Below, one piece after another: positions 10,311 to 63,565 of a stretch of 64,000 bases of DNA (position 1 is the first letter of the stretch; each line of letters starts with the position of its first letter). The stretch comes from Microbacterium testaceum StLB037 (GTDB taxonomy: Bacteria > Actinomycetota > Actinomycetes > Actinomycetales > Microbacteriaceae). The stretch lies in assembly GCF_000202635.1 (NCBI RefSeq), contig NC_015125.1, forward strand, positions 2,976,001-3,040,000, read 5' to 3'. Below the pieces are notes generated by a model. It had not been told where the DNA came from, searched no databases, and saw only the letters and a list, made by a program, of their open reading frames with translations. Made by a program: the position numbers and the translations under genes.

Positions 10311-11300
10311 ATGCAACAGGATGCCGAGACCTTCCTCGTCGACCGGTACCGACGGTTCGCCCGAGACGAGGCACCCGGTCGTTCCGCGCTCTACGCGCAA
10401 TGGGCCGAGCGCGTCGCCGTCGACCCCGCCGTGACCGGGGTCATCGCCCGCGTCACCGAGACTCACCGGCAACCTCCGCTCGTGTTCGCCGTCATGCGTC
10501 TGCTCGGAGCGCCGGAGGGCGAGATCGACGCGTGGGCGGCCTGGGTCGTCGCCCACGCCGACGATCTCGTGTCCGAGTGCGATCGCCGCAGCGTGCAGAC
10601 CAACGAACCGTTGCGCTGCGCGGCGCTGCTGCCGGCGCTCTCGCTCATCGACGGCCCGATCGCGCTGCTCGAGGTCGGGGCGAGCGCGGGACTCTGCCTC
10701 TTCCCCGACCGCTATTCGTACCGCTACCGCCGTGGCGGCGGCATCGTCGCGCTCGATCCCGCGGACGGCCCGAGTCCCGTCGTCCTCGACTGCGACCTGG
10801 AGGGCGCACCGCCGTTGCGGATGCCGGAGATCGTCTGGCGCGCGGGCATCGACCTGAACCCGCTCGACGCGGGGGCGGCCGAGGACCGGGCGTGGCTCGC
10901 CGGGCTGGTCTGGCCGGGGGAGGAGGGGCGGCGGGAGCGGATCGTCGGCGCCCTCGACATCGCGGCATCCGACCCGCCCCGGCTCGTCGCGGGAGACGGA
11001 GGTGCTGCTCTCCCGGCGCTCGCCGCGGAAGCGCCGCGAGACGCGACACTCGTCGTCACCACACCCGGCGTCCTCGCGCACGTTCCCCGGTCCGGTCGGG
11101 CCGCCGTGATCGCCGCCGCGCGCCGTGCGGGGCGGTGGATCACGCTCGACGCTCCGGGCCTGCACGACGGATGGACGAGCGCCCCGGCGGTGCGACCGGA
11201 CGGCTTCGCGCTCGCGCTCGACGGCGACGTTCTGGGCAGCGCCGATCCGCTCGGGGCGTGGGTGGCGTGGCACCCGGAGACGGGGGTCCGAGCGCAGTAG
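10311..11300 (+). CDS. DUF2332 family protein
   Basis: A 329-residue cytoplasmic protein with the hallmark centre of DUF2332: 'ALLEVGASAGLCLFPDRYSY' near residues 121-140. This looks like a Rossmann-type nucleotide- or SAM-binding loop. A later strand reads 'TLVVTTPGVLAHV'. The family is common in actinobacteria and has no established function; its fold suggests a methyltransferase-like protein. ATG start. It is divergent from msrB and ends nine bases before the DUF3263 gene. Confidence 0.8.
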   Translation: MQQDAETFLVDRYRRFARDEAPGRSALYAQWAERVAVDPAVTGVIARVTETHRQPPLVFAVMRLLGAPEGEIDAWAAWVVAHADDLVSECDRRSVQTNEPLRCAALLPALSLIDGPIALLEVGASAGLCLFPDRYSYRYRRGGGIVALDPADGPSPVVLDCDLEGAPPLRMPEIVWRAGIDLNPLDAGAAEDRAWLAGLVWPGEEGRRERIVGALDIAASDPPRLVAGDGGAALPALAAEAPRDATLVVTTPGVLAHVPRSGRAAVIAAARRAGRWITLDAPGLHDGWTSAPAVRPDGFALALDGDVLGSADPLGAWVAWHPETGVRAQ

Positions 11301-11309
11301 CGTGGCGCC

Positions 11310-11555
11310 GTGCCTCTTTCCGACCGCGACCGCGACGTCCTCGCTTTCGAGGGTGAGTGGCGCCGCCACGGGGGTGCGAAGGAGGAGGCGATCCGGCGCA
11401 CGTTCGACATCCCTCCCGCGCGGTACTACCAGCTCCTCGGACGCCTGATCGATCGGCCCGAGGCGCTCGCTCACGACCCGATGCTGGTGCGCCGCCTGCG
11501 CCGGTTGCGCGACGGTGAGACGCAGACGCAGCGCGATCGCGCGGCGACCCTCTGA
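11310..11555 (+). CDS. DUF3263 family protein (81 aa)
   Basis: A small helical protein with 'LAFEGEWRRHGGAKEEAIRR' then 'FDIPPARYYQLLGRLIDRPE' and a basic 'RLRRLRD' tail. This is the actinobacterial DUF3263 pattern, which reads like a helix-turn-helix (short helix, SxxRYYQxL recognition-like helix). DNA binding is plausible but unproven. GTG start shortly after the DUF2332 stop. It commonly precedes a LytR_C gene, as here. Confidence 0.8.
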   Translation: MPLSDRDRDVLAFEGEWRRHGGAKEEAIRRTFDIPPARYYQLLGRLIDRPEALAHDPMLVRRLRRLRDGETQTQRDRAATL

Positions 11556-22006: not shown

Positions 22007-22577
22007 GCAGCCGGTCGACGAGCGACTGCTTCACGCCCACGATCTCGCGCTGAACGCGCTGCACGAGATCACCCCGGCCGACACCGTGGGCCCGCCGGCC
22101 GACTACCTGCTCGAAGAGGGCGGTGTCGTCTCGCTGCGCTTCCACACGCGGCTTCTCGGTTACCCCGGGTGGTACTGGACGGTGAGCGTGGCCGTGGTCG
22201 ACGACGCGGAGCCGACCGTTCTCGAGGCCGAGCTGATGCCCGGCGAGGGAGCCCTCCTGGCGCCCGAGTGGGTGCCCTGGGCGACGCGTCTGGCGGACTA
22301 TCAGGCGGCGCAGGCTGCCGCGGCGGAGAACGACGAGTCCGAGGACGACGAAGACGACCTCGACGATGAGGACGACCTCGACGACGCCGAGGATGACGAC
22401 ACCGACGACGAGGATGCCGAGGACGAGCCGAAGGCGCGATTCCACGCCGGTGACCTCGACGGCGTCGACATCGACGAACTCGACGAGTCGGACGATCCCG
22501 AGGCCGATGCGGACGAGGACGAGCCCGACGAAGACGCGTCCGACGAGGACGAGGACGAGCGCGAACGCAGCTACTGA
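21990..22577 (+). CDS. DUF3027 family protein with very acidic tail
   Basis: 195 residues. The first 110 form the DUF3027 domain ('DERLLHAHDLALNALHEI', 'GYPGWYWTVSVAVVDDAEPT', 'LAPEWVPWATRL'). The rest is almost entirely Asp and Glu with one short less acidic break (KARFHAGDLDGVD), so it is probably disordered. The gene starts inside the cold-shock gene before it (17-base overlap), so the two are coupled. DUF3027 is an actinobacterial family without known function. The acidic tail could bind basic proteins or mimic nucleic acid; that is inference. Confidence 0.85.
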   Translation: MTSKPEQPVDERLLHAHDLALNALHEITPADTVGPPADYLLEEGGVVSLRFHTRLLGYPGWYWTVSVAVVDDAEPTVLEAELMPGEGALLAPEWVPWATRLADYQAAQAAAAENDESEDDEDDLDDEDDLDDAEDDDTDDEDAEDEPKARFHAGDLDGVDIDELDESDDPEADADEDEPDEDASDEDEDERERSY

Positions 22578-33090: not shown

Positions 33091-34272
33091 ATGACCGACA
33101 CGCCCACTCCGCCCGACGGCTGGTACCCCGACCCCGCGGGAAGCGGGGGCACGCGCCGCTGGGACGGCATCGCGTGGACGGACGAGGTGCGACCCGCAGG
33201 CGAAGAGCAGCGGGATGCCGGTCCCGTCGAGACCTCGAATGCGGGAGTGACCGCGCACCCGGCGGCGGGTGAGAGCCCGGATGGCGTGGCGGATCCCGCT
33301 TCGGCTCCTGGGGCGGCTGCCCCGGCCTCCGGTGCTGAGGCGGTATCCGCTCCGGCATCCGCTTCCGTTCCCGCCTCTGATGCGGCCCCCATCCCGGCCG
33401 CGGTCCCCGCTTCTGGTGCCGAGGCGGCACCTGCTCCTGCCGAGGCGGCCCCTGCTCCCGAGGCGGCACCTGCTCCTGCCGCGGCACCCGCACCAGTCGC
33501 GGCCGCCGCGGCCCCCGCCCCCGCACCCGCACCCGCTTACGGGGCGGCGCCGGTCTCGGCCCCCGCACCCGCCGCGGCTCCCGCTTACGGGGCGACGCCG
33601 GTCTCGGCCCCCGCCTCCCCGAGCACTCCCGCCACCCCGCCCGGGTATCCCGCCTACTCGACCGCCCCGGGCTACACCGGTGCATCGGCCCCGGCCTACG
33701 GCGGTGGCGCCCCGGGCTACACCGCACCGGGGGCCCAGGCGGCGACCCCCGCAAATCCCGGCGTTCCCACCGACACCGTCTGGGTCTGGCTGATCGTCGC
33801 CCTGCCGCTCGTGCAGTTGCTCGTGCTGTTCCTGTTCGACTGGCGTGCGCTTATCGAGCAGAGCCTCGCCACGGCCTTCCTCTCCGCGCAGGGCGGGACG
33901 ACCTCGTCTGTGGTGGGTCTCTCGCTGCAGTCGACCTTCCTCTCGTTGGGCGTAGGCCTCGTGTCCCTCGTGATCAGCGGGCTCAGCGTCCTCTTCGCCT
34001 TCCTCGACTGGCGCCAGCTCCGCGCGCGTGGCATCCAGAAACCGTTCCACTGGGCGTGGGCCTTCTTCGCCTTCGTGGTGTCGGCGGGCGTCTACGTCAT
34101 CGGACGCGGGATCGTCCTGCGTCGACAGACCGGCAAGGGCCTCGGCCCGATCTGGGGTTTCATCGGGGTGTCGGTCGTCTCGATCATCGCCGCGGCGATC
34201 TGGGCGATTCTGCTCCTGCGGGACTTCTCCGCGCTGTTCGAGCAGTACATGTACTACTACTACGGCTACTGA
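33091..34272 (+). CDS. DUF2510 membrane protein with long Ala/Pro-rich linker
   Basis: 393 residues. Residues 8-33 are a DUF2510 motif ('PPDGWYPDPAGSGGTRRWDG'). About 190 residues of low-complexity Ala/Pro follow, with repeats such as APAYGAAPVSAPAPAAAPAYG. Then come four or so membrane helices from about 232 on. The protein ends in a Tyr cluster (YMYYYYGY). Similar proteins are common in actinobacteria and unstudied. The linker would place the small DUF2510 motif away from the membrane. ATG follows GAGGGGACGACC. Confidence 0.8.
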   Translation: MTDTPTPPDGWYPDPAGSGGTRRWDGIAWTDEVRPAGEEQRDAGPVETSNAGVTAHPAAGESPDGVADPASAPGAAAPASGAEAVSAPASASVPASDAAPIPAAVPASGAEAAPAPAEAAPAPEAAPAPAAAPAPVAAAAAPAPAPAPAYGAAPVSAPAPAAAPAYGATPVSAPASPSTPATPPGYPAYSTAPGYTGASAPAYGGGAPGYTAPGAQAATPANPGVPTDTVWVWLIVALPLVQLLVLFLFDWRALIEQSLATAFLSAQGGTTSSVVGLSLQSTFLSLGVGLVSLVISGLSVLFAFLDWRQLRARGIQKPFHWAWAFFAFVVSAGVYVIGRGIVLRRQTGKGLGPIWGFIGVSVVSIIAAAIWAILLLRDFSALFEQYMYYYYGY

Positions 34273-35494: not shown

Positions 35495-35557
35495 CGCCCC
35501 AGTCTTCCAGGTGCGCAGGCCGGTGGAGGCGTGAGTGGACTGGTGTGCGGTGCGGCC

Positions 35558-35605
35558 GGGGCGGGCCGGGGCGGGCCGGGCCGGGGCGGGGCGGGGCGGG
35601 TCGGG
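35558..35605 (+). repeat. G-rich tract with quadruplex-forming potential
   Basis: About 48 bases are composed almost only of GGG and GGGG runs separated by one or two C, upstream of coaBC (on its C-rich template orientation) and of the NRDE gene. Many four-run combinations could form a G-quadruplex on the plus strand. Confidence 0.6.
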
Positions 35606-35661
35606 CGCTGGCGCGGGTGCGGGAGCCGCGGGTCGCGGTGCGCCGTGGGGCGGGCGTCACC

Positions 35662-36525: not shown

Positions 36526-36598
36526 GCCTCCGTAGCTCAGGGGATAGAGCGCCGCACTCCTAACGCGGGCGTCGCAGGTTCGAATCCTGTCGGGGGCA
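36526..36598 (+). tRNA. tRNA-Arg (anticodon CCT)
   Basis: A full cloverleaf: acceptor GCCTCCG/CGGGGGC (one T-G pair), D stem GCTC/GAGC, anticodon stem with loop CTCCTAA, and T arm GCAGG-TTCGAAT-CCTGT. CCA is not encoded. The anticodon stem closes with an A-C mismatch next to the loop. Confidence 0.92.
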
Positions 36599-37791: not shown

Positions 37792-38982
37792 ATGTCGCAG
37801 GCGTTTCTCATCGGCGGTGCACGCACCCCGGTCGGACGGTACGGCGGGGCTTTGGCATCCGTCCGCCCCGACGATCTCGCGGCTCTCGTCGTCGGCGAAG
37901 CCGTGGCCCGTGCGGGCGTTCCTGCCGAGGCGATCGACGAGGTGATCCTCGGCGCGGCGAATCAGGCCGGCGAGGACAACCGCAACGTCGCACGGATGGC
38001 CGTGCTGCTCGCGGGGCTTCCGGATGCCATTCCCGGACTCACCGTGAACCGTCTCTGCGCCTCGGGGATGAGCGCGATCGCGCTCGCCGCGCAGGCCGTG
38101 CGGGCGGGTGACGCCGACATCGTCGTGGCCGGGGGTGTGGAGTCGATGACCCGCGCGCCCTGGGTGCAGGCGAAGCCCGCGAAGGCGTGGGCGAAGCCCG
38201 GCGAGGCGTTCGACACCTCGATCGGCTGGCGCTTCACCAACCCGCGGCTCGCGGCCCGCGACAGGGCGACCTTCACGATGCCCGAGACCGCCGAGGAGGT
38301 GGCCCGCGTCGACGGCATCTCGCGCGCCGACGCCGACGCCTTCGCCCTGCGGAGTCACGAACGGGCGATCCGGGCTCAGGATGCCGGGCACTTCCGCGAC
38401 GAGATCGTCGGTGTCGAGACACCTCGGGGTCTCGTCGACACCGACGAAGGGCCGCGGCGAGACACCTCGCTCGAGGTGCTCGCGGGGCTCCGACCCGTCG
38501 TGAAGGGCGGCGAGGTGGTGACCGCGGGCAACGCGAGCTCGCTCAACGACGGCGCGTCGGCGATCGTGGTGGCCAGCGCGGCGGCGGTGGAGCGCTACGG
38601 CCTGCGGGCACGCGCGCGGATCGTCGCGCACGCCTCGGCGGGAGTGGCTCCGGAGGTCATGGGGCTGGGTCCCGTGCCCGCGACGGAGAAGGCGCTCGCG
38701 AAGGCCAGGCTGTCGGCATCCGACCTGGGGGCGGTCGAGCTCAACGAGGCGTTCGCGTCGCAGTCGCTGGCGTGCATGCGTCGGCTCGGTCTCGACCCCG
38801 AGATCGTCAACGCCGACGGCGGGGCGATCGCGCTGGGGCACCCGCTCGGGTCCAGCGGGTCGCGGTTGCTGGTGACGCTGCTGGGCCGGTTGGAGCGCGA
38901 GGAAGCGCGCTACGGGCTCGCGACGATGTGCGTCGGCGTGGGGCAGGGGACGGCGATGATCGTGGAGCGGGTCGATGGCTGA
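37792..38982 (+). CDS. paaJ: 3-oxoadipyl-CoA/3-oxo-5,6-dehydrosuberyl-CoA thiolase
   Basis: A 396-residue thiolase of standard length with nucleophile Cys in 'VNRLCASGMSAI', His in 'GHPLGSSGS' and second Cys in 'TMCVGVGQGTAM'. Its place at the head of a paa operon points to the PaaJ role: thiolysis of 3-oxo-5,6-dehydrosuberyl-CoA and 3-oxoadipyl-CoA, the two C-C cleavage steps of phenylacetate breakdown. ATG 37792 has AGAGG six bases before it; ATG 37786 is also possible. It overlaps the next gene by eight bases. Confidence 0.9.
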   Translation: MSQAFLIGGARTPVGRYGGALASVRPDDLAALVVGEAVARAGVPAEAIDEVILGAANQAGEDNRNVARMAVLLAGLPDAIPGLTVNRLCASGMSAIALAAQAVRAGDADIVVAGGVESMTRAPWVQAKPAKAWAKPGEAFDTSIGWRFTNPRLAARDRATFTMPETAEEVARVDGISRADADAFALRSHERAIRAQDAGHFRDEIVGVETPRGLVDTDEGPRRDTSLEVLAGLRPVVKGGEVVTAGNASSLNDGASAIVVASAAAVERYGLRARARIVAHASAGVAPEVMGLGPVPATEKALAKARLSASDLGAVELNEAFASQSLACMRRLGLDPEIVNADGGAIALGHPLGSSGSRLLVTLLGRLEREEARYGLATMCVGVGQGTAMIVERVDG

Positions 38983-39889
38983 GGGGGCGGGGGTCCCGGG
39001 GGCTTCGACGGGCTCAGCCACCTCGGCGGGGGAGGCCCCTGAGGGTGTCGAAGGGACCGAGGCTCTCGTGGGTCGGGTCCCGGGGGCTTCGACGGGCTCA
39101 GCCACCTCTGCGGGGGAGGTCCCTGAGCCTGTCGAAGGGACCGGGATCCTCAGCGCGCCCCGCCTCCGCATCGAGGCCCGCGACGACCGCGTCGTCGCGA
39201 CCCTCGATCGCCCCGAGCGCCGCAACGCGATCGACCAGGCGATGATCGACGAGCTGCACGCGCTGTGCGCGGAGCTCGAGGAGCGGCCGCGCACCCTGAT
39301 CCTGACCGGGGCCGGCGGGATCTTCGCTGCCGGCGCCGACATCGCCCAGCTGCGCGAGCGCACCGGCGACGATGCCCGTCGGGGGATCAACGCCACCGCC
39401 TTCGACCGCATCCGCCACCTCCCGATGCCCGTGATCGCCGCCATCGACGGCTTCGCGCTGGGCGGGGGAGCGGAGCTGGCGTACGCCGCCGACATCCGCA
39501 TCGGCACCCCGCGCGTGCGCTTCGGGAACCCCGAACCCGGTCTCGGCATCATCGCCGCCGCCGGCGCGGCCTGGCGCTTGCCCGAGATCGTCGGGCACGC
39601 CCGTGCGAGCGAGCTGCTGCTCACCGCGCGCATGATCGACGCCGACGAGGCCCTCGCGTGGGGACTGCTGTCGAGCATCCACGAGCCCGACGCGTTGCTC
39701 GACGCCGCGCACGCGATCGCCGACCGGATCGCGGCGAACTCCGTGCGCGCGACCATCCTCACCAAGCGCGCGCTGCTCGCCCCGCGGGCGGAGCACCCGA
39801 CGATCGACGGCGACCTTCAGGCCGAGCTGTTCGACAGCGCCGACAAACGCGCGCGCATGACCGCGTTCCTCGAGAGGAAGAAGAAGTGA
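38975..39889 (+). CDS. paaF: enoyl-CoA hydratase (PaaF-type) with in-frame repeat at the N-terminus
   Basis: 304 residues. Residues about 6-56 are the translation of two tandem REP-like repeats ('GASTGSATSAGEVPEPVEGT'). The crotonase domain begins near 60: 'GADIAQLRER', oxyanion and Glu in 'FALGGGAELAYAADI', second Glu in 'FGNPEPGLGII'. Both catalytic Glu of true hydratases are present, so it can hydrate 2,3-dehydroadipyl-CoA. Without the repeat the length is the usual 250 or so. It overlaps genes on both sides (ATGGCTGA, GTGA). Confidence 0.88.
   Translation: MAEGAGVPGASTGSATSAGEAPEGVEGTEALVGRVPGASTGSATSAGEVPEPVEGTGILSAPRLRIEARDDRVVATLDRPERRNAIDQAMIDELHALCAELEERPRTLILTGAGGIFAAGADIAQLRERTGDDARRGINATAFDRIRHLPMPVIAAIDGFALGGGAELAYAADIRIGTPRVRFGNPEPGLGIIAAAGAAWRLPEIVGHARASELLLTARMIDADEALAWGLLSSIHEPDALLDAAHAIADRIAANSVRATILTKRALLAPRAEHPTIDGDLQAELFDSADKRARMTAFLERKKK
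38992..39142 (+). repeat. two tandem REP-like palindromic repeats inside paaF
   Basis: Copies at 38992-39058 and 39076-39142 (67 bp each) have inner arms of the CTTCGACnnGCTCAG / CTGAGnnTGTCGAAG type and GGTCCC/GGGACC ends. Both copies keep the reading frame. Confidence 0.85.
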
Positions 39890-40779
39890 CCCTTCCCGAC
39901 ACCACGTCCGCGCCCGATATCGCGAACGCCGGGTCCCCGGCATCCCTCCCCGCCACCGTCGGCGTCCTCGGCGGGGGCCGCATGGGCGCGGGGATCGCGC
40001 ACGCGTTCCTGCTCGCCGGAGCCCGCGTGCACGTCGTCGAGCGAGACGCCGCGGCCGCCGGGCAGGCGCGCGAGCGCGTCGAGACCGCCCTTGCTCGCTC
40101 GGTCGAGCGAGGAACGAAGATCCCGGATGCCGACTTCCTGACCACCGGAGACGATGCGGACGCGTTCGCCGAGGCGGGCCTCGTGATCGAGGCCGTGCCG
40201 GAGGATCGCGACCTCAAGCTCGACGCCCTCGCGCGGATCGAGGGAGCTGTGCGGGGCGACGCGGTTGTGGCATCCAACACCTCCTCCATCTCGATCGACG
40301 CGCTCGCCGCGTCGCTCGGCCGGCCCGAGCGGTTCCTCGGCCTGCACTTCTTCAACCCGGTGCCGGCGTCGGCGCTCGTCGAGGTCGTGACGGGGTCGGC
40401 CACCCTACCGGGGGTCGTGAGCGCGGCGACGAACTGGGTCGAGGCCATCGGCAAGACCGCCGTCGTCGTGCGCGATGCGCCGGGCTTCGCCTCCAGCCGC
40501 CTCGGCGTCGCCCTCGGGCTCGAGGCCATCCGCATGCTCGAGGAGGGTGTCGCCTCGGCCCACGACATCGACACGGCGATGGAGCTCGGGTACCGGCATC
40601 CGATGGGCCCCCTCCGCACGACCGACATCGTCGGTCTCGACGTGCGTCTGGGCATCGCCGAAGAACTCGAGCGCGCGTTCGGCGCGCGCTTCACCCCGCC
40701 CGCGCTGCTGCGAGAGCTCGTCGCCCAGGGGCACCTGGGCCGCAAGACCGGCCGCGGATTCTACGAATGGAGCGAATGA
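39886..40779 (+). CDS. paaH: 3-hydroxyacyl-CoA dehydrogenase
   Basis: 297 residues. NAD-binding motif 'VGVLGGGRMGAGIAHAFLLA' lies near 25-44. 'VIEAVPEDRDLK', catalytic 'NTSSISI' and 'GLHFFNPVP' (His of the dyad) follow, then the C-terminal helical domain ('VRDAPGFASSRLG', 'GYRHPMGPLRTTDIVGLDV'). It oxidises 3-hydroxyadipyl-CoA to 3-oxoadipyl-CoA. The GTG start overlaps the paaF stop (GTGA) with GAGAGGAAGAA upstream; paaZ starts within its stop (ATGA). Confidence 0.92.
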   Translation: MTLPDTTSAPDIANAGSPASLPATVGVLGGGRMGAGIAHAFLLAGARVHVVERDAAAAGQARERVETALARSVERGTKIPDADFLTTGDDADAFAEAGLVIEAVPEDRDLKLDALARIEGAVRGDAVVASNTSSISIDALAASLGRPERFLGLHFFNPVPASALVEVVTGSATLPGVVSAATNWVEAIGKTAVVVRDAPGFASSRLGVALGLEAIRMLEEGVASAHDIDTAMELGYRHPMGPLRTTDIVGLDVRLGIAEELERAFGARFTPPALLRELVAQGHLGRKTGRGFYEWSE

Positions 40780-42830
40780 TGACGTTTCTCCCCAGCTACG
40801 TGAACGGTGCGTGGTGGGCGCCCGGGAGCGACCCCGACGCGGCGATCGTGCGCGACGCCTCGACGGGGGAGGAGATCGTGCGCATCAGCACTCGCGGGCT
40901 CGATCTCGCGGGCGCCATCGCCTACGCCCGCCGCGAGGGACAGAAGAATCTTGGCGCCCTCACCTTCCCTCAGCGCGCGATGGTGCTGAAGAACCTCGCG
41001 ATCGCGCTGAACGAGCGCCGCGAAGAGCTGTACGCCCTCTCGGAGCGCTCCGGCTCGACCCGTCGCGACTCGCTCAGCGACATCGACGGCGGGATCGGCG
41101 TGCTCTTCACGTTCTCGTCGAAGGCGCGGCGCGAGCTGCCCGCCGGCAAGGTCGTGCTCGACGGTCCGATCGAGCCCCTGTCGAAGGACGGCTCCTTCCT
41201 CGGCCGGCACGTCTACACGCGCCTCCCCGGGGTCGCGGTGCAGATCAACGCCTTCAACTTCCCCATGTGGGGAGCGCTCGAGAAGTTCGCGCCCGCGTTC
41301 CTGGCCGGGCTCCCCACGATCGTCAAGCCCGCGACCCCGACGGCATACGTCGCCGAGGCGTGGGTGCGGATGGTCGTCGCGACCGGCCTGCTGCCCGAGG
41401 GATCGCTGCAACTGGTGAGCGGCAGCGTCCCGGGCCTGTTCGACCTGCTCGACCTCGGCGACACCGTCGGGTTCACCGGCAGCGCCTCGACCGCCGAGCG
41501 TCTGCGCGCCCAGGCGAAGCCCGGCGTGCGCTTCACGAGCGAGACCGACTCGATCAACGCCTCGATCCTCGGTCCCGACGCCGTGCCCGGCACCCCCGAG
41601 TTCGACGCCTACGTCAAGCAACTGCTCGTCGAGCTGACCACCAAGGCGGGGCAGAAGTGCACGGCGATCCGCCGCGCGATCGTGCCGAGGGGGACGACGG
41701 ATGCCGTGGCCGAGGCGCTGCGCGCGAAGATCGCCGAGCGTGTGGTCATCGGTGATCCGCGCGCTGAGGGCGTGACGATGGGACCGGTCGTCTCGCTCGC
41801 GCAGCGCGACGAGGTGCTGCGGCAGGTGCGCGCGCTCGAGGAAGCCGGGGGCCGCTTCGTCGTGGGCTCGGCCGACGCCCCGGAGGGGGCGCCCGCCGAC
41901 GGCGCCTTCCTCCAGCCCATGCTCCTGGCCTTCGCGGATGCCACGACCCCGGCCGTCAACGACATCGAGGCCTTCGGGCCCGTCGCGAGCATCGTCGAGT
42001 ACGCCGACGTCGCGGACGCGGCGACCATCGTGGCGCGCGGCGGCGGCTCGCTCGTCACGAGCGTTGCCACCCACGACCCCGACGTCGCGACCGAGCTGCT
42101 CACCCGCATGGGCGCGATGAACGGCCGGGTGCTCTTCCTCGACCGCGACGACGCGCGCACCTCGACCGGCCATGGCGCCCCCGTGCCGCACCTTGTGCAC
42201 GGCGGACCCGGCCGCGCCGGCGGTGGCGAGGAGCTCGGCGGCATCCGCTCCGTGCTCCATTACATGCAGCGCACGGCGATCCAAGGCTCGCCGCGCATGC
42301 TGACCGCGCTCACCGGGGTGTGGCATCCGGGAGCCGAGACCGACTCCGCCGGCACGCACCCGTTCCGCAAGCCCCTCTCGGACCTCCGGATCGGGGATGC
42401 CGTGGAGTCGGCCGAACGCGAGGTCACCCTCGACGACATCGAGGTGTTCGCGAACTTCACCGGCGACACGTTCTACGCGCACATGGACGAGGAGTCCGCC
42501 GCGGCGAACCCGTTCTTCCCGGGGCGCGTTGCGCACGGCTACCTCCTCGTGTCGTGGGCGGCGGGGCTGTTCGTGGACCCGGCGCCCGGTCCGGTGCTGG
42601 CCAACTCGGGCCTCGAGAACCTGCGCTTCGTCACGCCGGTCTCACCCGGCGACCGCATCCGCGTCGCCCTCACGGCGAAGCAGATCACCCCGCGCGAGAC
42701 CGACGAGTACGGCGAGGTGCGGTGGGACGCCGTGATCCGCAACCAGGATGACGAGATCGTCGCGCAGTACGACGTGCTGACGCTCGTGGCGAAGACGTGG
42801 GCACCCGCTCCCGTGGCGGTGCCGGCATGA
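40776..42830 (+). CDS. paaZ: PaaZ: oxepin-CoA hydrolase / semialdehyde dehydrogenase
   Basis: 684 residues, two domains. The aldehyde dehydrogenase part (1-530) has 'NAFNFPMWG', 'GFTGSASTAERLR', the Glu in 'TSETDSINASIL' and the catalytic Cys in 'KAGQKCTAIRRAIV'. The MaoC-type hydratase part (about 550-680) has 'FANFTGDTFYAHMDEESAAA' and 'GRVAHGYLLVS'. The hydratase opens the oxepin ring and the dehydrogenase oxidises the resulting aldehyde. Both active sites appear intact. ATGA overlaps at both ends. Confidence 0.96.
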   Translation: MMTFLPSYVNGAWWAPGSDPDAAIVRDASTGEEIVRISTRGLDLAGAIAYARREGQKNLGALTFPQRAMVLKNLAIALNERREELYALSERSGSTRRDSLSDIDGGIGVLFTFSSKARRELPAGKVVLDGPIEPLSKDGSFLGRHVYTRLPGVAVQINAFNFPMWGALEKFAPAFLAGLPTIVKPATPTAYVAEAWVRMVVATGLLPEGSLQLVSGSVPGLFDLLDLGDTVGFTGSASTAERLRAQAKPGVRFTSETDSINASILGPDAVPGTPEFDAYVKQLLVELTTKAGQKCTAIRRAIVPRGTTDAVAEALRAKIAERVVIGDPRAEGVTMGPVVSLAQRDEVLRQVRALEEAGGRFVVGSADAPEGAPADGAFLQPMLLAFADATTPAVNDIEAFGPVASIVEYADVADAATIVARGGGSLVTSVATHDPDVATELLTRMGAMNGRVLFLDRDDARTSTGHGAPVPHLVHGGPGRAGGGEELGGIRSVLHYMQRTAIQGSPRMLTALTGVWHPGAETDSAGTHPFRKPLSDLRIGDAVESAEREVTLDDIEVFANFTGDTFYAHMDEESAAANPFFPGRVAHGYLLVSWAAGLFVDPAPGPVLANSGLENLRFVTPVSPGDRIRVALTAKQITPRETDEYGEVRWDAVIRNQDDEIVAQYDVLTLVAKTWAPAPVAVPA

Positions 42831-43519
42831 GCCTGCGGCCGATGATGCGGAACGACCGCGCGTCGGCGATGCTCGGCATGGTCGTCGAGCACGACGAGCC
42901 GGGGGAGTCGCGCGTGTCGATGACCGTGCGCGACGACATGCTCAACGGCTTCGCCATCACCCATGGCGGGCTCGTCTTCACCCTCGCCGACACCGCCTTC
43001 GCGATCGCGTGCAACGAGGACGAGCGGGTCACCGTCGCCGGGGGCGCGGACATCACGTTCCTGAAGTCGACCACCGCGGGGCAGACGCTCACGGCGACGG
43101 CCGAGCGGCGGGCCCGCAGCGGTCGTACGGGCCTCTACGACATCCGCGTGACCGATGAGAAGGGCGACCTCGTCGCCGAGGTGCGAGGCCGCAGCATCAC
43201 GACGGATCGGCGACCGCCGGTCCCGGTCCCTTCGACGGGCTCAGGGACCTCTGATGCGCGGGTGGCTGAGCCTGTCGAAGCCTCCGGCCCCCGATCCGCG
43301 TCGGTTCCGGTCCCTTCGACAAGCTCAGGGACCTCGGCCGCGCCGGTGGCTGAGCGTGTCGAAGCCTCCGGCCGCCGATCCGCGGCGGTTCCGGTCCCTT
43401 CGACAAGCTCAGGGACCTCGGCCGCGCCGGTGGCTGAGCCTGTCGAAGCCTCCGGCCCCCAGCCCTCGAACGACCCCGAGCGCGACGGCGCGCTCCGCAC
43501 CACGGAGGTGTCCCGATGA
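42827..43519 (+). CDS. paaI: PaaI hotdog thioesterase with in-frame repeat tail
   Basis: 230 residues. Residues 1-125 form a hotdog domain with 'NGFAITHGGLVFTLADTAFA' (His and Asp of the PaaI active site) and 'DITFLKSTTAGQTLTA'. From about 133 to 212 the protein is three tandem 28-residue units read from an 84-bp repeat ('VPVPSTSSGTSAAPVAEPV'). PaaI hydrolyses ring-hydroxylated phenylacetyl-CoA dead-end products and frees CoA. A tail this long is not part of the family. ATGA overlaps with paaZ and paaK. Confidence 0.92.
   Translation: MSLRPMMRNDRASAMLGMVVEHDEPGESRVSMTVRDDMLNGFAITHGGLVFTLADTAFAIACNEDERVTVAGGADITFLKSTTAGQTLTATAERRARSGRTGLYDIRVTDEKGDLVAEVRGRSITTDRRPPVPVPSTGSGTSDARVAEPVEASGPRSASVPVPSTSSGTSAAPVAERVEASGRRSAAVPVPSTSSGTSAAPVAEPVEASGPQPSNDPERDGALRTTEVSR
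43225..43460 (+). repeat. REP-like repeat, nearly three 84-bp copies, inside paaI
   Basis: Units begin at 43225, 43309 and 43393. Each holds GGTCCCTTCGAC...GCTCAGGGACC and then GGTGGCTGAG...GTCGAAGCC. The 84-bp period is a multiple of three, so the frame is kept. Confidence 0.9.
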
Positions 43520-44826
43520 CCCTGACGACCGCATCGCGCCCGGACTTCCTGGCATCCGTCGATCCCACCGGCATCCCACTCGAGAGTCTGCGTGCGCTGC
43601 AGCTCGAGCGCCTGCAATGGACGGTGCGCCACGCCTACGACAACGTCGCCCTCTACCGCCGGAAGTTCGACGAGGCCGGCGTCGGTCCCGACGACATCCG
43701 GAGCCTCGACGACATCCGCCTCCTGCCGTTCACCACCAAGGCCGACCTGCGCGAGACCTACCCCTTCGGCATGTTCGCCGTGCCGATGCCCGATGTCCGT
43801 CGCATCCACGCATCATCCGGCACGACCGGGCGTCCCACCGTCGTCGGCTACACCGCGGGCGACCTCGACCGCTGGGCCGATCTCGTCGCGCGATCGCTGA
43901 GCGCCGCGGGCATCCGCGCCGGCGATCGCGTGCACAACGCCTACGGCTACGGCCTGTTCACCGGCGGACTCGGCGCCCACGCGGGCATCGAGCGGCTCGG
44001 CGCGACCGTGATCCCGATGTCGGGCGGGCAGACCGCTCGGCAGGCGCAGCTCATCCAGGACTTCGAACCGGATGCCATCCTCTGCACGCCGAGCTACCTC
44101 CTCACCATCGCCGATGCGCTCGAGGCGGCGGGCGTCGACCCGCGCTCGACCTCGCTCAGGGTCGCGGTGCTCGGTGCGGAGCCGTGGACGAACGAGATGC
44201 GTCGAGAGATCGAGCGCCGCCTCGACATCGTCGCCGTCGACATCTACGGCCTCAGCGAGGTGATGGGTCCGGGCGTGGCATCCGAGAGCGCCCTCACCAA
44301 GGACGGACCGCACATCTGGGAGGATCACTTCCTTCCCGAGACGATCGACGGCGACACGGGCGCGCCCGTCGCCGACGGCGAGCTCGGCGAGCTCGTCTTC
44401 ACCTCGCTCACCAAGGAGGCCTTCCCGGTCATCCGCTACCGCACGCGCGACCTCACCCGCCTGCAGCCCGGCACCGCGTTCCCGGCCATGCGGCGCATCG
44501 AGAAGATCACCGGGCGCAACGACGACATGATCATCCTGCGCGGCGTGAACCTCTTCCCGACGCAGATCGAGGAGATCGTGCTGGGGATCGAGAAGCTCAC
44601 CCCGCACTTCGTGCTCGAGCTGCGGCGAGAGGGGCGAATGGATGCCATGACCGTCCGCATCGAACGGCATCCGGCCCTCGAGCGCGAGGTGTGCGAGGCC
44701 GCCGGCGTCGTGCTCCAGCAACGCATCAAGGTGCTCATCGGCACGAGTGTCGACGTGCGCGTCGAGGAGCCCGGCACGCTGCCCCGCAGCGAGGGCAAGT
44801 ACAAGCGCGTCTACGACCTGCGCTGA
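43516..44826 (+). CDS. paaK: phenylacetate-CoA ligase
   Basis: A 436-residue adenylate-forming enzyme of PaaK type. The P-loop-like ATP motif is 'IHASSGTTGRPTVVGY'. 'YGYGLFTGGLG', 'DIYGLSEVMGPGVA', 'RYRTRDLT' and 'GRNDDMIILRGVNLFP' follow. The C-terminal catalytic Lys region 'EGKYKRVYDL' is present. It activates phenylacetate with ATP and CoA, the first committed step. Last gene of the first paa operon, coupled by ATGA to paaI. A palindromic repeat after it probably ends transcription. Confidence 0.95.
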   Translation: MTLTTASRPDFLASVDPTGIPLESLRALQLERLQWTVRHAYDNVALYRRKFDEAGVGPDDIRSLDDIRLLPFTTKADLRETYPFGMFAVPMPDVRRIHASSGTTGRPTVVGYTAGDLDRWADLVARSLSAAGIRAGDRVHNAYGYGLFTGGLGAHAGIERLGATVIPMSGGQTARQAQLIQDFEPDAILCTPSYLLTIADALEAAGVDPRSTSLRVAVLGAEPWTNEMRREIERRLDIVAVDIYGLSEVMGPGVASESALTKDGPHIWEDHFLPETIDGDTGAPVADGELGELVFTSLTKEAFPVIRYRTRDLTRLQPGTAFPAMRRIEKITGRNDDMIILRGVNLFPTQIEEIVLGIEKLTPHFVLELRREGRMDAMTVRIERHPALEREVCEAAGVVLQQRIKVLIGTSVDVRVEEPGTLPRSEGKYKRVYDLR

Positions 44827-44861
44827 CCCCGGGCCGCCGGCCCGCGCCGAGGACGCACTGC

Positions 44862-44911
44862 TTCGTCGAGACCGCACCCGTTCGATGCCGATCGGATGCG
44901 GTCTCGACGAA
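44862..44911. repeat. intergenic palindromic repeat, probable two-way terminator (copy 2)
   Basis: Perfect 15-bp arms TTCGTCGAGACCGCA (44862-44876) and its complement (44897-44911) have a 20-base loop. It shares its core with the element at 9218-9256, and like it lies between convergent genes. Confidence 0.65.
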
Positions 44912-44956
44912 CGCACACGGTCTCGGCGACGCGGCGGCCGCGGCGGCGGCGCGTCG

Positions 44957-45619
44957 TCAGGACCCCGCGCGCGCCAGCGGGGTGTCGTCGAGGCCGGCGA
45001 TCAGGTCGCGGAGGCTGTCGAAGACCTCGACCGCCCCGGCATCCCGAAGCTCCTCCGGCGCGAAGCCGCCGGTGCGCACCGCGACCGTGGGGATGTGCGC
45101 CTTCGCCGCGGCGATGGCATCCCAGGGGGAGTCGCCGATCATGATCCCGCCGGAGCCGGGAACCCGGTCGAGCGCGGTCTGCACGAGATCGGGCGCGGGC
45201 TTGCTGGCCTCGACGTCGTCGGAGGTGGTCCACGCGTCGGCGAGATCGCGCGCGTCGACGAGGTCGAGGAAGTGCTCGACGTGGTCACTCTTGCCGGAGC
45301 TCGCGAGCACCACCTGGAAACCGCGCTCCTTCACCGCGACGAGCAGGTCGTGGGCGCCGTTGAAGGGGCGGACCTCGTCGATGAAGGGCTCGAACTCCTC
45401 GGTCCACGCGGCGCGCAGCGCCTCGCCGTGCGCGTTCTCGACGTCGTCGCTCGTGAGGGAGGGGACGAGCTGGTCGCCGCCCATGCCGATCGCCCGGTGG
45501 ATACGCCAGATCGGCAGCACGATGTCGAACCGGAGGAACGAGCGGTACCACGCGAGGGCGTGCTGGTAGTTGGTGTCGACGAGGGTGCCGTCGACGTCGA
45601 AGATCGCGGTGTCGGCCAT
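44957..45619 (-). CDS. HAD-superfamily hydrolase (phosphoglycolate-phosphatase-like)
   Basis: 220 residues. Motif I '[14 protein letters not shown]' has nucleophile D8 and D10; motif II lies in '[13 protein letters not shown]'; motif III Lys in 'ASKPAPDLV'; motif IV '[15 protein letters not shown]'. A helical cap is inserted after motif I. It belongs to the subfamily of Gph/beta-phosphoglucomutase; the substrate is open. It lies antisense between the two paa operons and reads toward paaK. Its promoter region overlaps the paaA promoter. Confidence 0.88.
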
Positions 45620-45689
45620 GACCCCACTTCATCCGCTTGCGCGAGAAGCCGCAGCACCGTTGCGGTGCCCTCCGCCCTCCGCTACAGTT

Positions 45690-45712
45690 TTACTGAACGA
45701 TCGGTCTGTAAA
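45690..45712 (+). promoter_or_regulatory. PaaR/TetR-type operator of the paaABCDEG operon
   Basis: It carries the same 17-mer as at 37715. Here the symmetry is longer: the core palindrome spans 45692-45709 and is flanked by TTTAC and GTAAA. It ends just before the AAGGAG of paaA, so a bound repressor would block transcription start. Confidence 0.78.
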
Positions 45713-45722
45713 GGAGTCGACG

Positions 45723-46682
45723 ATGACGATGACCGCCCCCCTTCCCGACGCCGCTGAGGGCGAGGCGATGTTCGACGCCCTCATCGAGGCGGACGGTCGC
45801 ATCGAGCCTCGGGACTGGATGCCGGAGGGCTACCGCCGCACGCTGATCCGTCAGATCTCCCAGCACGCGCACTCCGAGATCATCGGCATGCAGCCGGAGG
45901 GAGCCTGGATCACCCGGGCGCCCAGCCTCAAGCGCAAGTCGATCCTGCTGGCGAAGGTGCAGGATGAAGCGGGCCACGGCCTCTACCTCTACTCGGCCGC
46001 GCAGACGCTCGGCATCACGCGCGACGAGATGACGCAGCAGCTCGTCGACGGCAAGGCACGCTACTCGTCGATCTTCAACTACCCGACCCCGACGTGGGCC
46101 GACATGGGCGCGATCGGCTGGCTCGTCGACGGAGCCGCGATCTGCAACCAGGTGCCGCTGTGCCGCGCCTCCTACGGACCCTACGGGCGCGCGATGGTGC
46201 GCATCTGTAAAGAGGAGTCGTTCCACCAGCGCCAGGGGTTCGAGATCCTTCTCACCCTCATGCAGGGCACCGACGAGCAGCGTGAGATGGCTCAGGATGC
46301 CGTGAACCGCTGGTACTGGCCGAGTCTGATGATGTTCGGTCCTCCCGACGACGATTCGCCCAATTCGGCGCAGTCGACGGCGTGGAACATCAAGCGCTTC
46401 AGCAACGACGTGCTCCGTCAGCGTTTCGTCTCGATGCTCGTGCCGCAGGCGGCGGTGCTCGGGGTGACGCTGCCCGACCCCGACCTGCGCTTCAACGAGG
46501 AGACGGGCGAGTACGACATGGGCGAGATCGACTGGAGCGAGTTCCACGAGGTGCTCGCCGGCCGCGGACCGCTGAACACGATGCGCCGCCAGCACCGCCG
46601 CGACGCGCACGAAGAAGGTGCGTGGGTGCGCGAGGCCGCCGCGGCGTACGCCGCGAAGAAGAGCGCCAAGGTGGCCGCCTGA
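45723..46682 (+). CDS. paaA: 1,2-phenylacetyl-CoA epoxidase, catalytic subunit
   Basis: 319 residues, the standard length. Diiron ligands lie in helices 'HAHSEIIGM', '[16 protein letters not shown]' and '[18 protein letters not shown]'. 'DYRLNxE'-like '[20 protein letters not shown]' lies near the end. With PaaB, C, D and E it epoxidises the aromatic ring of phenylacetyl-CoA. ATG follows AAGGAG by six bases. paaB begins within its stop (TGATG). First gene of the second paa operon. Confidence 0.97.
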
Positions 46683-46987
46683 TGGCGACCCCGGGCGGTA
46701 GCCCCGCCGAGACCTGGCCCCTGTGGGAGGTGTTCGTCCGTGCGAACCGCGGCCTCAGCCACGTGCACGTCGGTTCGCTCCACGCCCCCGACGCCGAGCT
46801 CGCCGTGCGCAATGCGCGCGACCTCTACACCCGTCGGGGCGAGGGCGTGTCGGTGTGGGTCGTGCCTTCGGACGCCGTGACCACGAGCGATCCGGGACAG
46901 AAGGGTGCCTTCTTCGAGTCGCCGGCGGGCAAGAACTACCGGCACGCGGTCTACTACACCGCGTCCGAGGGGGTGCCGCACCTGTGA
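46682..46987 (+). CDS. paaB: phenylacetyl-CoA epoxidase structural subunit PaaB
   Basis: 101 residues. Typical opening 'WPLWEVFVRANRGLSHVHVG' is followed by 'SLHAPDAELAVRNARDLYTR' and 'GVSVWVVPSDAV'. PaaB bridges PaaAC units in the complex. It is coupled to paaA by TGATG and to paaC by GTGA. Confidence 0.96.
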   Translation: MATPGGSPAETWPLWEVFVRANRGLSHVHVGSLHAPDAELAVRNARDLYTRRGEGVSVWVVPSDAVTTSDPGQKGAFFESPAGKNYRHAVYYTASEGVPHL

Positions 46988-48024
46988 GCACCTCGACCGA
47001 AAGCGGGTCCCGGTCCCTTCGACAGGCTCAGGGACCTGACGCGGCTGCGGTGGCTGAGCCTGTCGACGCCCCCCAGAGCGGGTCCCGGTCCCTTCGACAG
47101 GCTCAGGGACCTGACGGGCCTGCGGTGGCTGAGCCCGTCGAAGCCCCCGACGCGGGGGATCGGTCCCTTCGACCTGAAGCGGCTGCGGTGGCTGAGCCTG
47201 TCGACGCCCCCGACCCGCACGGTGACGTCTCGCTCGACGCCCGCGAACTCGGCGCCGAGCTCGCCGGGGGAGAGGATCGCACCACCGACCCCGACGTCGC
47301 CGCCTACGCGCTGCGCCTCGGCGACGACGCGCTGATCCTCGCGCAGAACCTCTGCGGCTGGATCGCCCGCGCCCCTGAGATCGAGGAAGACGTCGCCCTC
47401 GGCAACATCGCCCTCGACCTCCTCGGCCACGCCCGCTCGCTCCTGCGTTACGCCGGCAGCTACGACGGGCGCAGCGAAGACGACCTCGCCTACTGGCGCG
47501 ACGAGCCGGACTTCCGCAGCGCCTGGCTCTTCGAGCTTCCCAACGGCGACTTCGCCCACACGATCGCGCGCCAGCTCCTGGCATCCACGTATCTTCTCGA
47601 GCTGTACCGCGACCTCACGGCATCCACCGATCCCGTGCTCGCCGCCGTCGCCGCGAAGGCCGAGAAAGAGGTCGACTACCACCGCGATCACGCCGTGCAG
47701 TGGACGCTGCGTCTCGCGGGCGGAACCGACGAATCGCGCCGCCGCTTCCTCGTCGCCCTCGACGACACCTGGCCGTACCTCGACGAGCTCTTCCGCGACG
47801 AGCCGCTGCACGAACGTCTGGACGGCATCGCGGTCCGGCCGTCGTCCCTGCGCACGCGGGCCGACGAGGTACTCGCCGCGGTTCTGGCGGAAGAAGACGT
47901 CCCCGTGCCGGCGATCCCCGCGTCGTCCGCCGGCGGACGCCGAGGCATCCATCACCCGTCGTTCGGCCCCCTGATCGCTGAGATGCAGGTGCTGGCCCGC
48001 CGGCACCCGGGGGCGACATGGTGA
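46984..48024 (+). CDS. paaC: phenylacetyl-CoA epoxidase subunit PaaC with in-frame repeat at the N-terminus
   Basis: 346 residues against about 250 normally. Residues about 10-77 are translated REP-like repeat ('SRSLRQAQGPDGPAVAEPV' and similar). The PaaC helical domain begins near 97 with 'DVAAYALRLGDDALILAQNL', then 'EEDVALGNIALDLLGHARSL' and 'AEKEVDYHRDHAVQWTLRL'. PaaC lacks full diiron ligands and supports PaaA. The GTG start overlaps paaB. The extra N-terminus should be flexible and may be tolerated. Confidence 0.94.
   Translation: MSTSTESGSRSLRQAQGPDAAAVAEPVDAPQSGSRSLRQAQGPDGPAVAEPVEAPDAGDRSLRPEAAAVAEPVDAPDPHGDVSLDARELGAELAGGEDRTTDPDVAAYALRLGDDALILAQNLCGWIARAPEIEEDVALGNIALDLLGHARSLLRYAGSYDGRSEDDLAYWRDEPDFRSAWLFELPNGDFAHTIARQLLASTYLLELYRDLTASTDPVLAAVAAKAEKEVDYHRDHAVQWTLRLAGGTDESRRRFLVALDDTWPYLDELFRDEPLHERLDGIAVRPSSLRTRADEVLAAVLAEEDVPVPAIPASSAGGRRGIHHPSFGPLIAEMQVLARRHPGATW
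47012..47213 (+). repeat. REP-like repeat, three 75-bp copies, inside paaC
   Basis: Units begin at 47012, 47087 and 47162, each GGTCCCTTCGAC...GTCGA. The third copy has lost part of its middle, by a multiple of three, so the frame is preserved. Confidence 0.9.
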
Positions 48025-62515: not shown

Positions 62516-63565
62516 ATGGGTGGACAGGTTCTCGGTGGCGGGGTGATCGTGTTCGTCGCGGTCGCGCTGTGGCTCGTCTATCTTCTGCCGTCGTGGCAGA
62601 GCCGACACCGCTTCACCTCCGCCGAACGCAACGCCGTCCGCCTCAACCAGGCGCTCCGCGTGCTGGCCGAGACCGCCGAGACGCCCCGCGAGGTGCGACT
62701 CGAACTCACCGCCCGCACCGCGCACCAGCAGCAGAAGATCGCACGCCAGGTGCAGGCGCACAAGGCCGAGATCGAGCTCGCCGAGGCCAAGGCCCGGCTC
62801 GAGGTCGCCCGGCTCGAGAACGCGCGTGATCGCGACCTCGTGAAAGAGCAGCGCGCCGCCGCCCTCGAGCTCGCCCGCGCCGAACGCGCGGCTGCCGTGC
62901 ACGTCGCGCGCGCCGAGCGTGCCGCCGCCCTGGAGAAGTCCCGCGCCGAACGCGCCGTCGCCGTCGAGCGCGCCCGCCTCGAGCGTGCCTCCGCGGTGGC
63001 GCAGCCCGAGGCGCGTCGGGCCCGTGCTCGCCGTCGCTTCCGCCTGGCCACCTCCGTCTTCGCCCTTGCCGGCCTGATCTCCGCTGTCGCCGGGACCGTC
63101 ATGGTCGCGACCGGCGCCGGGCCGGTGCTGCTCATCGCGGGACTGACCGGGGTCGTGGCATCCGTTCTCCTCCTTCGCCGGCTGGCGCAGGTGGCCTCGC
63201 GGACGGCCGTGCGACCCGCGGTCGTGGCCGAAGCTCGTGTCGCGCCGGTGGTGCAGGACTTCGCTCCCGCGGCTCCCGCCCCGCGTCAGACGTGGACCCC
63301 TCGCGAGCTCCCGCGTCCGCTCGTCGCGTCGGCAGGCTCCCGTGCCGCCGCGGTGGTGGACGAGCAGCTCGCGCGCGAGGCCCTGCGCGCCGCCGCTCGC
63401 GAGGAGGCTGCGCGCGAGATCGCCGCGGCCCAGGCTCCGACGCCGATCGAGACCGCGCGCCCGGCGGCCGCTCCCTCGCCGTACGCGGCGATGGGGTACG
63501 TCGACGACACCGAGATCGAAGACCACGTCCGCCGGCTGCTCGAGCGGCGCGCTTCGGGGCAGTGA
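62516..63565 (+). CDS. membrane protein with long charged coiled coil
   Basis: 349 residues. An N-terminal membrane helix ('GGGVIVFVAVALWLVYLLPS') precedes a 130-residue Ala/Glu/Arg coiled coil (about 45-170) built of units like 'LARAERAAAVHVARAERAAA'. Two membrane helices near 182-225 follow. An Ala-rich C-terminal part contains a short conserved end 'GYVDDTEIEDHVRRLLERR'. The two membrane regions would place the coil between them on one side. It is a conserved actinobacterial type without assigned function. Confidence 0.75.
   Translation: MGGQVLGGGVIVFVAVALWLVYLLPSWQSRHRFTSAERNAVRLNQALRVLAETAETPREVRLELTARTAHQQQKIARQVQAHKAEIELAEAKARLEVARLENARDRDLVKEQRAAALELARAERAAAVHVARAERAAALEKSRAERAVAVERARLERASAVAQPEARRARARRRFRLATSVFALAGLISAVAGTVMVATGAGPVLLIAGLTGVVASVLLLRRLAQVASRTAVRPAVVAEARVAPVVQDFAPAAPAPRQTWTPRELPRPLVASAGSRAAAVVDEQLAREALRAAAREEAAREIAAAQAPTPIETARPAAAPSPYAAMGYVDDTEIEDHVRRLLERRASGQ

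Follow-up and report, generated by a model that had tools for sequence, protein, structure and literature searches.

Repetitive extragenic palindromes (REPs) and bacterial interspersed mosaic elements (BIMEs) of E. coli, Stenotrophomonas and Pseudomonas are characterized, in excerpts of two papers (PMC8266576, PMC2817692), as short imperfect palindromes that occur in more than 100 copies, mostly between genes, in inverted pairs and arrays. According to excerpts of Di Nocera et al. 2013 (PMC3733652), CGTC-tagged REPs have a stem of 8-9 bp, a loop of 4-5 bp and a CGTC tag, and are said to have no dedicated transposase. The same excerpts report REPs within coding regions, including the termini, where clusters encode 43-82 residues. 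Rickettsia palindromic elements (RPEs) are outlined in part of a review (PMC10969869) as elements of about 150 bp that lie in frame in unrelated genes. We analyzed a stretch of 64,000 nucleotides of Microbacterium testaceum StLB037 (NC_015125.1, positions 2,976,001 to 3,040,000; hereafter, the window), in which three phenylacetate genes, paaF, paaI and paaC, carry arrays of one palindromic repeat family. With a probability of roughly three in four, this is a BIME-like family of the Microbacteriaceae that spreads independently of a REP-associated tyrosine transposase (RAYT), persists at the junctions between genes and, if these have no spacer, becomes coding.

The repeat family and its A and B units

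The core sequence CTTCGACNNGCTCAG was present in the window as 12 exact units and three units with one mismatch. All 15 were inside the paaF, paaI and paaC sites (four, six and five units; spans 39003-39137, 43230-43448 and 47017-47206, respectively), the three genes in which a preliminary description of this DNA had placed the palindromic repeats. When up to two mismatches were admitted, the window contained 28 matches against 3.8 expected, and none of 100 shuffles reached 28. The whole genome contains 297 exact cores, 150 forward and 147 reverse, and a reversed-pattern control of the core gave none genome-wide. The same description had called the family REP-like, which agrees with this count, with the inverted pairs and arrays and with the mostly intergenic location described below.

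Clusters were sampled from 53 stretches around the forward copies that come first in the genome (100 copies, reaching to 2.74 Mb). Together with the window, these make 54 sequences, which total 415 kb and include 200 of the 297 exact cores. A cluster that has none of these forward copies, or that lies past 2.75 Mb and outside the window, is in the sample only if it is near one that is sampled. Allowing at most two mismatches in the core, we obtained 224 units, grouped in 71 clusters. Each unit measures 25 bp and has a short stem closing around a core of 15 bp (CTTCGAC-NN-GCTCAG) that is asymmetric and almost invariant; the NN positions were AG, GG, AA or GA in 209 of the 224 units. Divergence of the core from its consensus was at least 1% of the fixed sites, a lower bound because detection admitted no more than two mismatches.

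Two stem types were found in Microbacterium, A (GGTCC...GGACC) and B (GGTGG...CCACC); 113 units were A, 97 were B and 14 were untyped. The two innermost variable stem pairs are C-G in about half of the units and G-C in the other half. The stem covaries: among the 200 exact units, which comprise 198 distinct 55-mers, positions − 1 and 15 were paired in 194 (97.7 expected) and positions − 2 and 16 in 187 (94.8 expected).

In the following, G000 is the genome analyzed, G063 is a second Microbacterium genome, in which 633 cores were counted, and L numbers are loci of relatives or of the sample. Neighbouring units within clusters followed a pair rule. In G000 (153 pairs, 19 of which contain untyped units and were excluded), all 94 opposite-facing pairs joined A with B, and all 40 same-facing pairs were alike. 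The corresponding numbers in G063 were 123 of 123 and 59 of 59, with 28 pairs excluded. In a second classing, every unit was typed by the base at − 1; G169, with stems CG/CG versus CC/GG, then gave 10 opposite-facing unlike pairs and one same-facing alike pair, and none of the other two kinds. The principle of pairing two types is not unheard of, because E. coli BIMEs likewise join two unit types, y with z1 or z2 (excerpts of PMC8266576 and PMC2817692).

The three genes and their arrays are as follows; > and < give the facing of each unit.

38975..39889, plus strand: paaF-like enoyl-CoA hydratase gene, 304 aa; residues 8-56, approximately, are encoded by repeats; PF00378 at 74-303
38998..39142, plus strand: paaF repeat cluster, four units B> <A B> <A; period 84 bp; in frame
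42827..43519, plus strand: paaI thioesterase gene, 230 aa; PF03061 at 44-116
43225..43453, plus strand: paaI repeat cluster, six units forming three A> <B dimers; period 84 bp; in frame
43504..43519, plus strand: 3' end of paaI, with a GGAGG Shine-Dalgarno-like site for paaK and an ATGA stop/start overlap; also in L010 and L011
46984..48024, plus strand: paaC, 346 aa; GTG start overlapping the paaB stop; residues 9-76, approximately, are encoded by repeats; PF05138 at 101-346
47012..47211, plus strand: paaC repeat cluster, five units A> <B A> <B <B; like-unit distances 75, 75 and 63 bp; in frame

The arrays are near the N-terminus in paaF and paaC and near the C-terminus in paaI. Preservation of the frame at all three sites, close to protein termini, was as first described. 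Of the periods given at that time, 84 bp for paaI and 75 bp for paaC were correct, and the 67 bp for paaF should read 84 bp, as judged from core starts at 39003 and 39087. The paaF array is oriented opposite to those of paaI and paaC, in agreement with the earlier suggestion of separate events.

The repeat peptide of PaaF includes GASTGSATS and PEPVEG. The ATG start of paaF, with GGAG upstream, is kept in four relatives that have the same upstream gene (L010, L011, L014 and L015). For paaC, the start at 46984, with GAGGGGG upstream and the overlap with the paaB stop, is kept in all eight aligned relatives; on the grounds of this conservation, it replaced the start chosen by our gene caller (47188), which is within the repeats. 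The paaI start was taken at 42827, and the caller chose 42797. The repeat tail of PaaI is positioned between the thioesterase fold and a conserved TTEVSR end. The DNA for this end carries both GGAGG and the ATGA at which paaI and paaK overlap, and the frame therefore matters even at the C-terminus of PaaI.

The statement that the arrays are outside the catalytic fold was compared with matches to solved structures. It was correct for PaaI (matches at residues 5-123 of 230) and PaaC (104-346 of 346; 4iit chain C). The PaaF array ends at about residue 56, and the matches begin at 58 or later in 57 of the 60 listed chains (of 87 matched); three begin earlier and partly overlap the array (3h81 at 51, 3rsi at 55 and 8sk6 at 36).

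Gene junctions, reading frame and variation among strains

We placed the 71 sampled clusters relative to genes predicted with a purpose-made codon-usage caller, the paaC cluster being counted as intragenic through the start set at 46984. Although 89% of the sampled DNA was called coding, 53 clusters were intergenic, 16 were wholly intragenic and two were at a gene edge. Thirteen of the 16 intragenic clusters were within 30 residues of a protein terminus (18.75% expected, p 1.1e-7). Same-strand gene overlaps of 1 to 17 bp accounted for 12 of these 13 terminal clusters, compared with 79 of 359 adjacent gene pairs in the background (p 6.9e-8), and for nine of ten when the paa sites were excluded (p 5e-6). 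Other proteins with terminal copies included RluB-, ScpA-, KdpB-, RimI- and CydD-like ones (named by eye). In G063, 26 of 34 clusters were intergenic, six were in genes and two were at an edge. N-terminal copies were seen in both G000 and G063 in a FadR-like regulator (L104/L178), a KdpB-like protein (L117/L187) and a RluB-like protein (L094/L172), named in the same way; some intragenic copies may be common to the two species.

The occurrence of three sites within 8 kb had been regarded as striking. It is not exceptional in the 71-cluster sample, where groups of three clusters within 8.2 kb have five other starts, at genome positions 261862, 1327655, 1331713, 1766914 and 1909258; the group starting at 1331713 overlaps that starting at 1327655.

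The spacing of like units differed between intragenic and intergenic clusters. Distances were divisible by three in 18 of 18 intragenic cases and in 21 of 70 intergenic ones, which argues, as far as sequence can tell, that the intragenic copies, N-terminal ones included, are translated under frame selection. Counted per cluster, periods were divisible by three in eight of eight intragenic and five of 35 intergenic clusters (p 8.9e-6); without the three paa sites, the numbers were five of five and five of 35 (p 3.8e-4). Openness alone does not explain the bias, since each of the 35 intergenic arrays has one or more open frames. G063 gave a similar result for distances (six of six intragenic versus 29 of 143 intergenic) and for clusters (two of two versus two of 24, p 0.018). 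Translation that starts downstream of the repeats, which had been named as a point to be checked, appears unlikely in view of the conserved starts and the periods divisible by three.

A comparison with sister strains had also been suggested. PaaA matches that of three Microbacterium testaceum strains at 96-98% (best tblastn segment), which places the window within or close to this species complex. The paaB/paaC junction is free of repeats in L011, L013, L014, L017 and L021, contains one dimer in L012 and a remnant in L010. At the paaI end, there is no unit in L011 and one in L010. Copies are therefore missing or present in other numbers in relatives, and identical insertions in all sisters are excluded. 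In L015 (Microbacterium sp. ASV49), a different, unrelated inverted repeat is present at the paaC N-terminal junction (11299-11319, with a downstream partner arm), as if this junction accepts several repeat families.

A search seeded with the PaaI tail, which by design cannot recover tail-less PaaI, gave 11 proteins, eight of which are PaaI of 175 to 271 aa, including that of the window; these eight share the fold and the TTEVSR end. Among the 120 PaaC homologues listed of 4993, 15 contained a translated unit by pattern, decayed units being uncounted; the 275-residue entries under the name M. testaceum lack it. Across 80 paa loci, some of which cover part of the operon, nine hold 14 copies at several different junctions, 11 between matched genes and three inside them (two in L038 and one in L053). 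At about 12197 of L045, the N-terminus of a paaD-like protein contains three repeat-like peptides (MVMLRQAQQPVGEAQQPVGEAQQP), at another junction of the paa operon.

These data bear on the view that the arrays are ancient low-complexity protein tails which share codon patterns by chance and involve no mobile DNA. In its favour, the repeats are in frame and, in PaaI, conserved residues follow them. However, DNA units of this one family are found mostly between genes, different frames are read in different proteins, and presence and number vary among sister strains. The strain polymorphism refutes this view, and we give it practically no weight.

Elsewhere in the window, a minus-strand gene (44957-45619), HAD-like by eye, is located between paaK and paaA and interrupts the direction of the operon. 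Other tandem repeats are at 22329-22564, 33417-33724, 35554-35623 and 62850-62994, including a CGGGG array and a 33-bp array, and a tRNA gene is at 36526-36598.

Mobilization and RNA folding

Exact cores were detected in 108 of 149 genomes of the genus, at 0 to 633 per genome. Six further Microbacteriaceae genera include genomes with more than 30 cores. Among 396 genomes of the phylum, more than 10 cores were found only in the genome analyzed here and in G629 (38).

Inverted unit pairs, arrays and the intergenic bias resemble BIMEs (excerpts of PMC2817692), and mobilization by a RAYT, a tyrosine HUH transposase with a Y1_Tnp domain, had been proposed for these repeats. The profile searches spoke against such a classic REP family. 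Y1_Tnp was absent from G000 and from 148 of the 149 genus genomes, the sole exception being G041 (locus L009), which has two exact cores. It was also absent from all 23 sampled repeat-bearing genomes of the class, seven of which are also among the 149; two distant genomes, with six and four cores, complete the 25 repeat-bearing genomes sampled, and these two carry Y1_Tnp. The Y1_Tnp loci examined in G535 and G664 contained no exact core. As a positive control, Y1_Tnp was found in five of 14 named genomes, E. coli included. In the flank columns of the 200 units, no position-fixed GTAG was observed next to the stem. We consider mobilization by a RAYT very improbable.

Reverse transcriptase (PF00078) was tried as another candidate mobilizer and rejected, since it occurred in four of 18 amplified and three of 13 core-free genomes, with no association. 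Among genes between neighbouring clusters, inspected by eye and with no scan against a family library, nothing transposase-like was seen except an IS5-like remnant beside the cluster at 1336119. In searches for carriage on phages and plasmids, an A unit matched one virus contig and the paaI array matched no plasmid.

Recombination, gene conversion or slippage could spread an existing palindrome with no dedicated mobilizer. The arrays do look locally duplicated, the 84-bp units of paaI matching each other at 92%, and the lack of a dedicated gene among those searched, together with the virus and plasmid results, is in line with this mechanism. Local events alone, however, hardly account for dispersal to 71 sampled clusters, or for high copy numbers that occur patchily in seven genera or more. 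We assign this mechanism a minor but real chance.

We also considered that the hairpins act in paa mRNA, on translation or stability between coupled cistrons, with the coding role being secondary. Single units were predicted to fold at − 10.4 to − 11.5 kcal/mol with a 7-bp stem. The paaF array had a fold z of − 3.3 (0 of 200 shuffles as good), and two paaI dimers had z of − 2.3 and − 2.0 (6 and 10 of 200). Furthermore, the intergenic clusters of G000 were over-represented at convergent junctions (19 of 53 versus 56 of 359 pairs, p 9e-4); at divergent junctions, the numbers were 4 of 53 and 64 of 359 (p 0.07). On the other hand, the paaC dimer (z − 1.65) was equalled by 13 of 200 shuffles, and arrays showed no orientation bias relative to transcription (18:13 at same-direction intergenic junctions and 6:8 in genes). 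Copies are limited to nine of the paa loci, at differing junctions. The sole Rfam match on the arrays, gyrA RNA at 20.3 bits, was far under the gathering score of 45 and was rejected. On the basis of predicted folds and orientation, a strand-specific RNA role for the arrays has no positive support; the stem-loop function put forward in the preliminary description was not borne out, and we regard it as unlikely.

Proposed explanation and comparison with known systems

The RAYT-independent, BIME-like family could give rise to the paa arrays in the following manner. Inverted A/B pairs of units would multiply locally into arrays, and the family would disperse over the genome by a RAYT-independent, presumably transposition-like route. 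Copies would be kept at gene junctions, as the damage there is slight. Where the genes of an operon are tightly coupled, the stop codon of one overlaps the start codon of the next and no spacer is left, and a copy at such a junction would necessarily be coding. A coding array would survive only with a length divisible by three, by which the start upstream, or the coupled stop/start downstream, is preserved. The result would be neutral, drifting and probably disordered terminal tails on PaaF, PaaI and PaaC that are actually translated. Overlap, rather than another property of such junctions, would account for the intragenic copies.

Several observations weigh against this explanation. When units were typed at − 1, the pair rule had exceptions: opposite-facing unlike, opposite-facing alike, same-facing alike and same-facing unlike pairs numbered 101, 1, 50 and 1 in G000 (two exceptions), 136, 0, 63 and 11 in G063, and 24, 2, 22 and 0 in G198, a genome of another genus with stems CA/TG versus CC/GG. 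The rule fails in G287, G225, G185 and G338, of the same family, where 11 of 11 typed opposite-facing pairs were alike. Three of the 16 intragenic clusters of G000 are internal, in a KipI/KipA-like fusion linker, an E2-like linker and a RlmN-like protein (named by eye). In G063, two of the six intragenic clusters are internal and four are terminal, with two of these four at overlapping junctions, and all 11 clusters of G198 are intergenic. The gene caller gives repeat codons a score of zero, and starts before arrays, and with them some overlaps, may be artefacts; the comparison with relatives covered the paa starts only. The outcome of the overlap test is also in part a matter of definition, as a junction copy with a spacer is scored as intergenic. 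Finally, no mobilizer turned up in the Y1_Tnp and PF00078 searches or in the inspection of intervening genes.

A more specific picture is possible, and we propose it tentatively, as somewhat less likely than not. The repeats would form a REP system of the Microbacteriaceae in which an undescribed trans-acting factor reads the fixed 15-bp centre and not a GTAG-tagged stem. Several lineages would make or tolerate only heterodimers of different stems, the system would have become high-copy repeatedly in separate genera, and at junctions where genes overlap it would go on supplying proteins with new termini.

The proposed explanation gives a simple, testable reason for the presence of 'extragenic' repeats in proteins: the repeats target or survive at junctions, and overlap forces them to be coding. 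In addition, this is a large, patchily amplified family for which no RAYT was found, and other means of spreading REPs can be tested by comparing high-copy and zero-copy species within a single genus.

We compared the family with the described systems. It corresponds to REPs and BIMEs in the broad sense, being an imperfect palindrome within 20-50 bp and present in more than 100 copies, mostly intergenic and in inverted pairs and arrays. Unlike them, it is conserved in the central 15 bp, and its variable stems fall into covarying types. Of the features of GTAG/RAYT-associated REPs, a GTAG (or similar) tetranucleotide by the stem was not seen at a fixed position, and no cognate Y1_Tnp was found in the genome. 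Like the CGTC REPs of the excerpts cited above, it has intragenic terminal copies and no transposase was found for it. In contrast to that description, its units have a long conserved loop and variable stems; no position-fixed CGTC tag was seen in the flank columns, and the predicted stem is 7 bp. 'Actinobacteria' and 'Microbacterium' do not occur in the main text of PMC3733652, as distinct from its figures and supplements. As in RPEs, the repeats lie in frame in coding genes (16 of 71 clusters, with the 18 of 18 distances given above). They differ from RPEs, as outlined in the part of the review cited, in that units of 25 bp are arrayed and the intragenic ones are mostly at overlapping junctions in G000.

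Intragenic REPs, REPs without a transposase and in-frame palindromic elements are already described. The core letters had no match in the open-access papers searched, and among the matches listed there for REP with Microbacterium, Microbacteriaceae or Actinobacteria, no title or abstract describes this family. Judged by the matches listed, three things look new: the family itself, the combination of its fixed core with covarying stems that are specific to lineages, and the association of coding copies with junctions where genes overlap.

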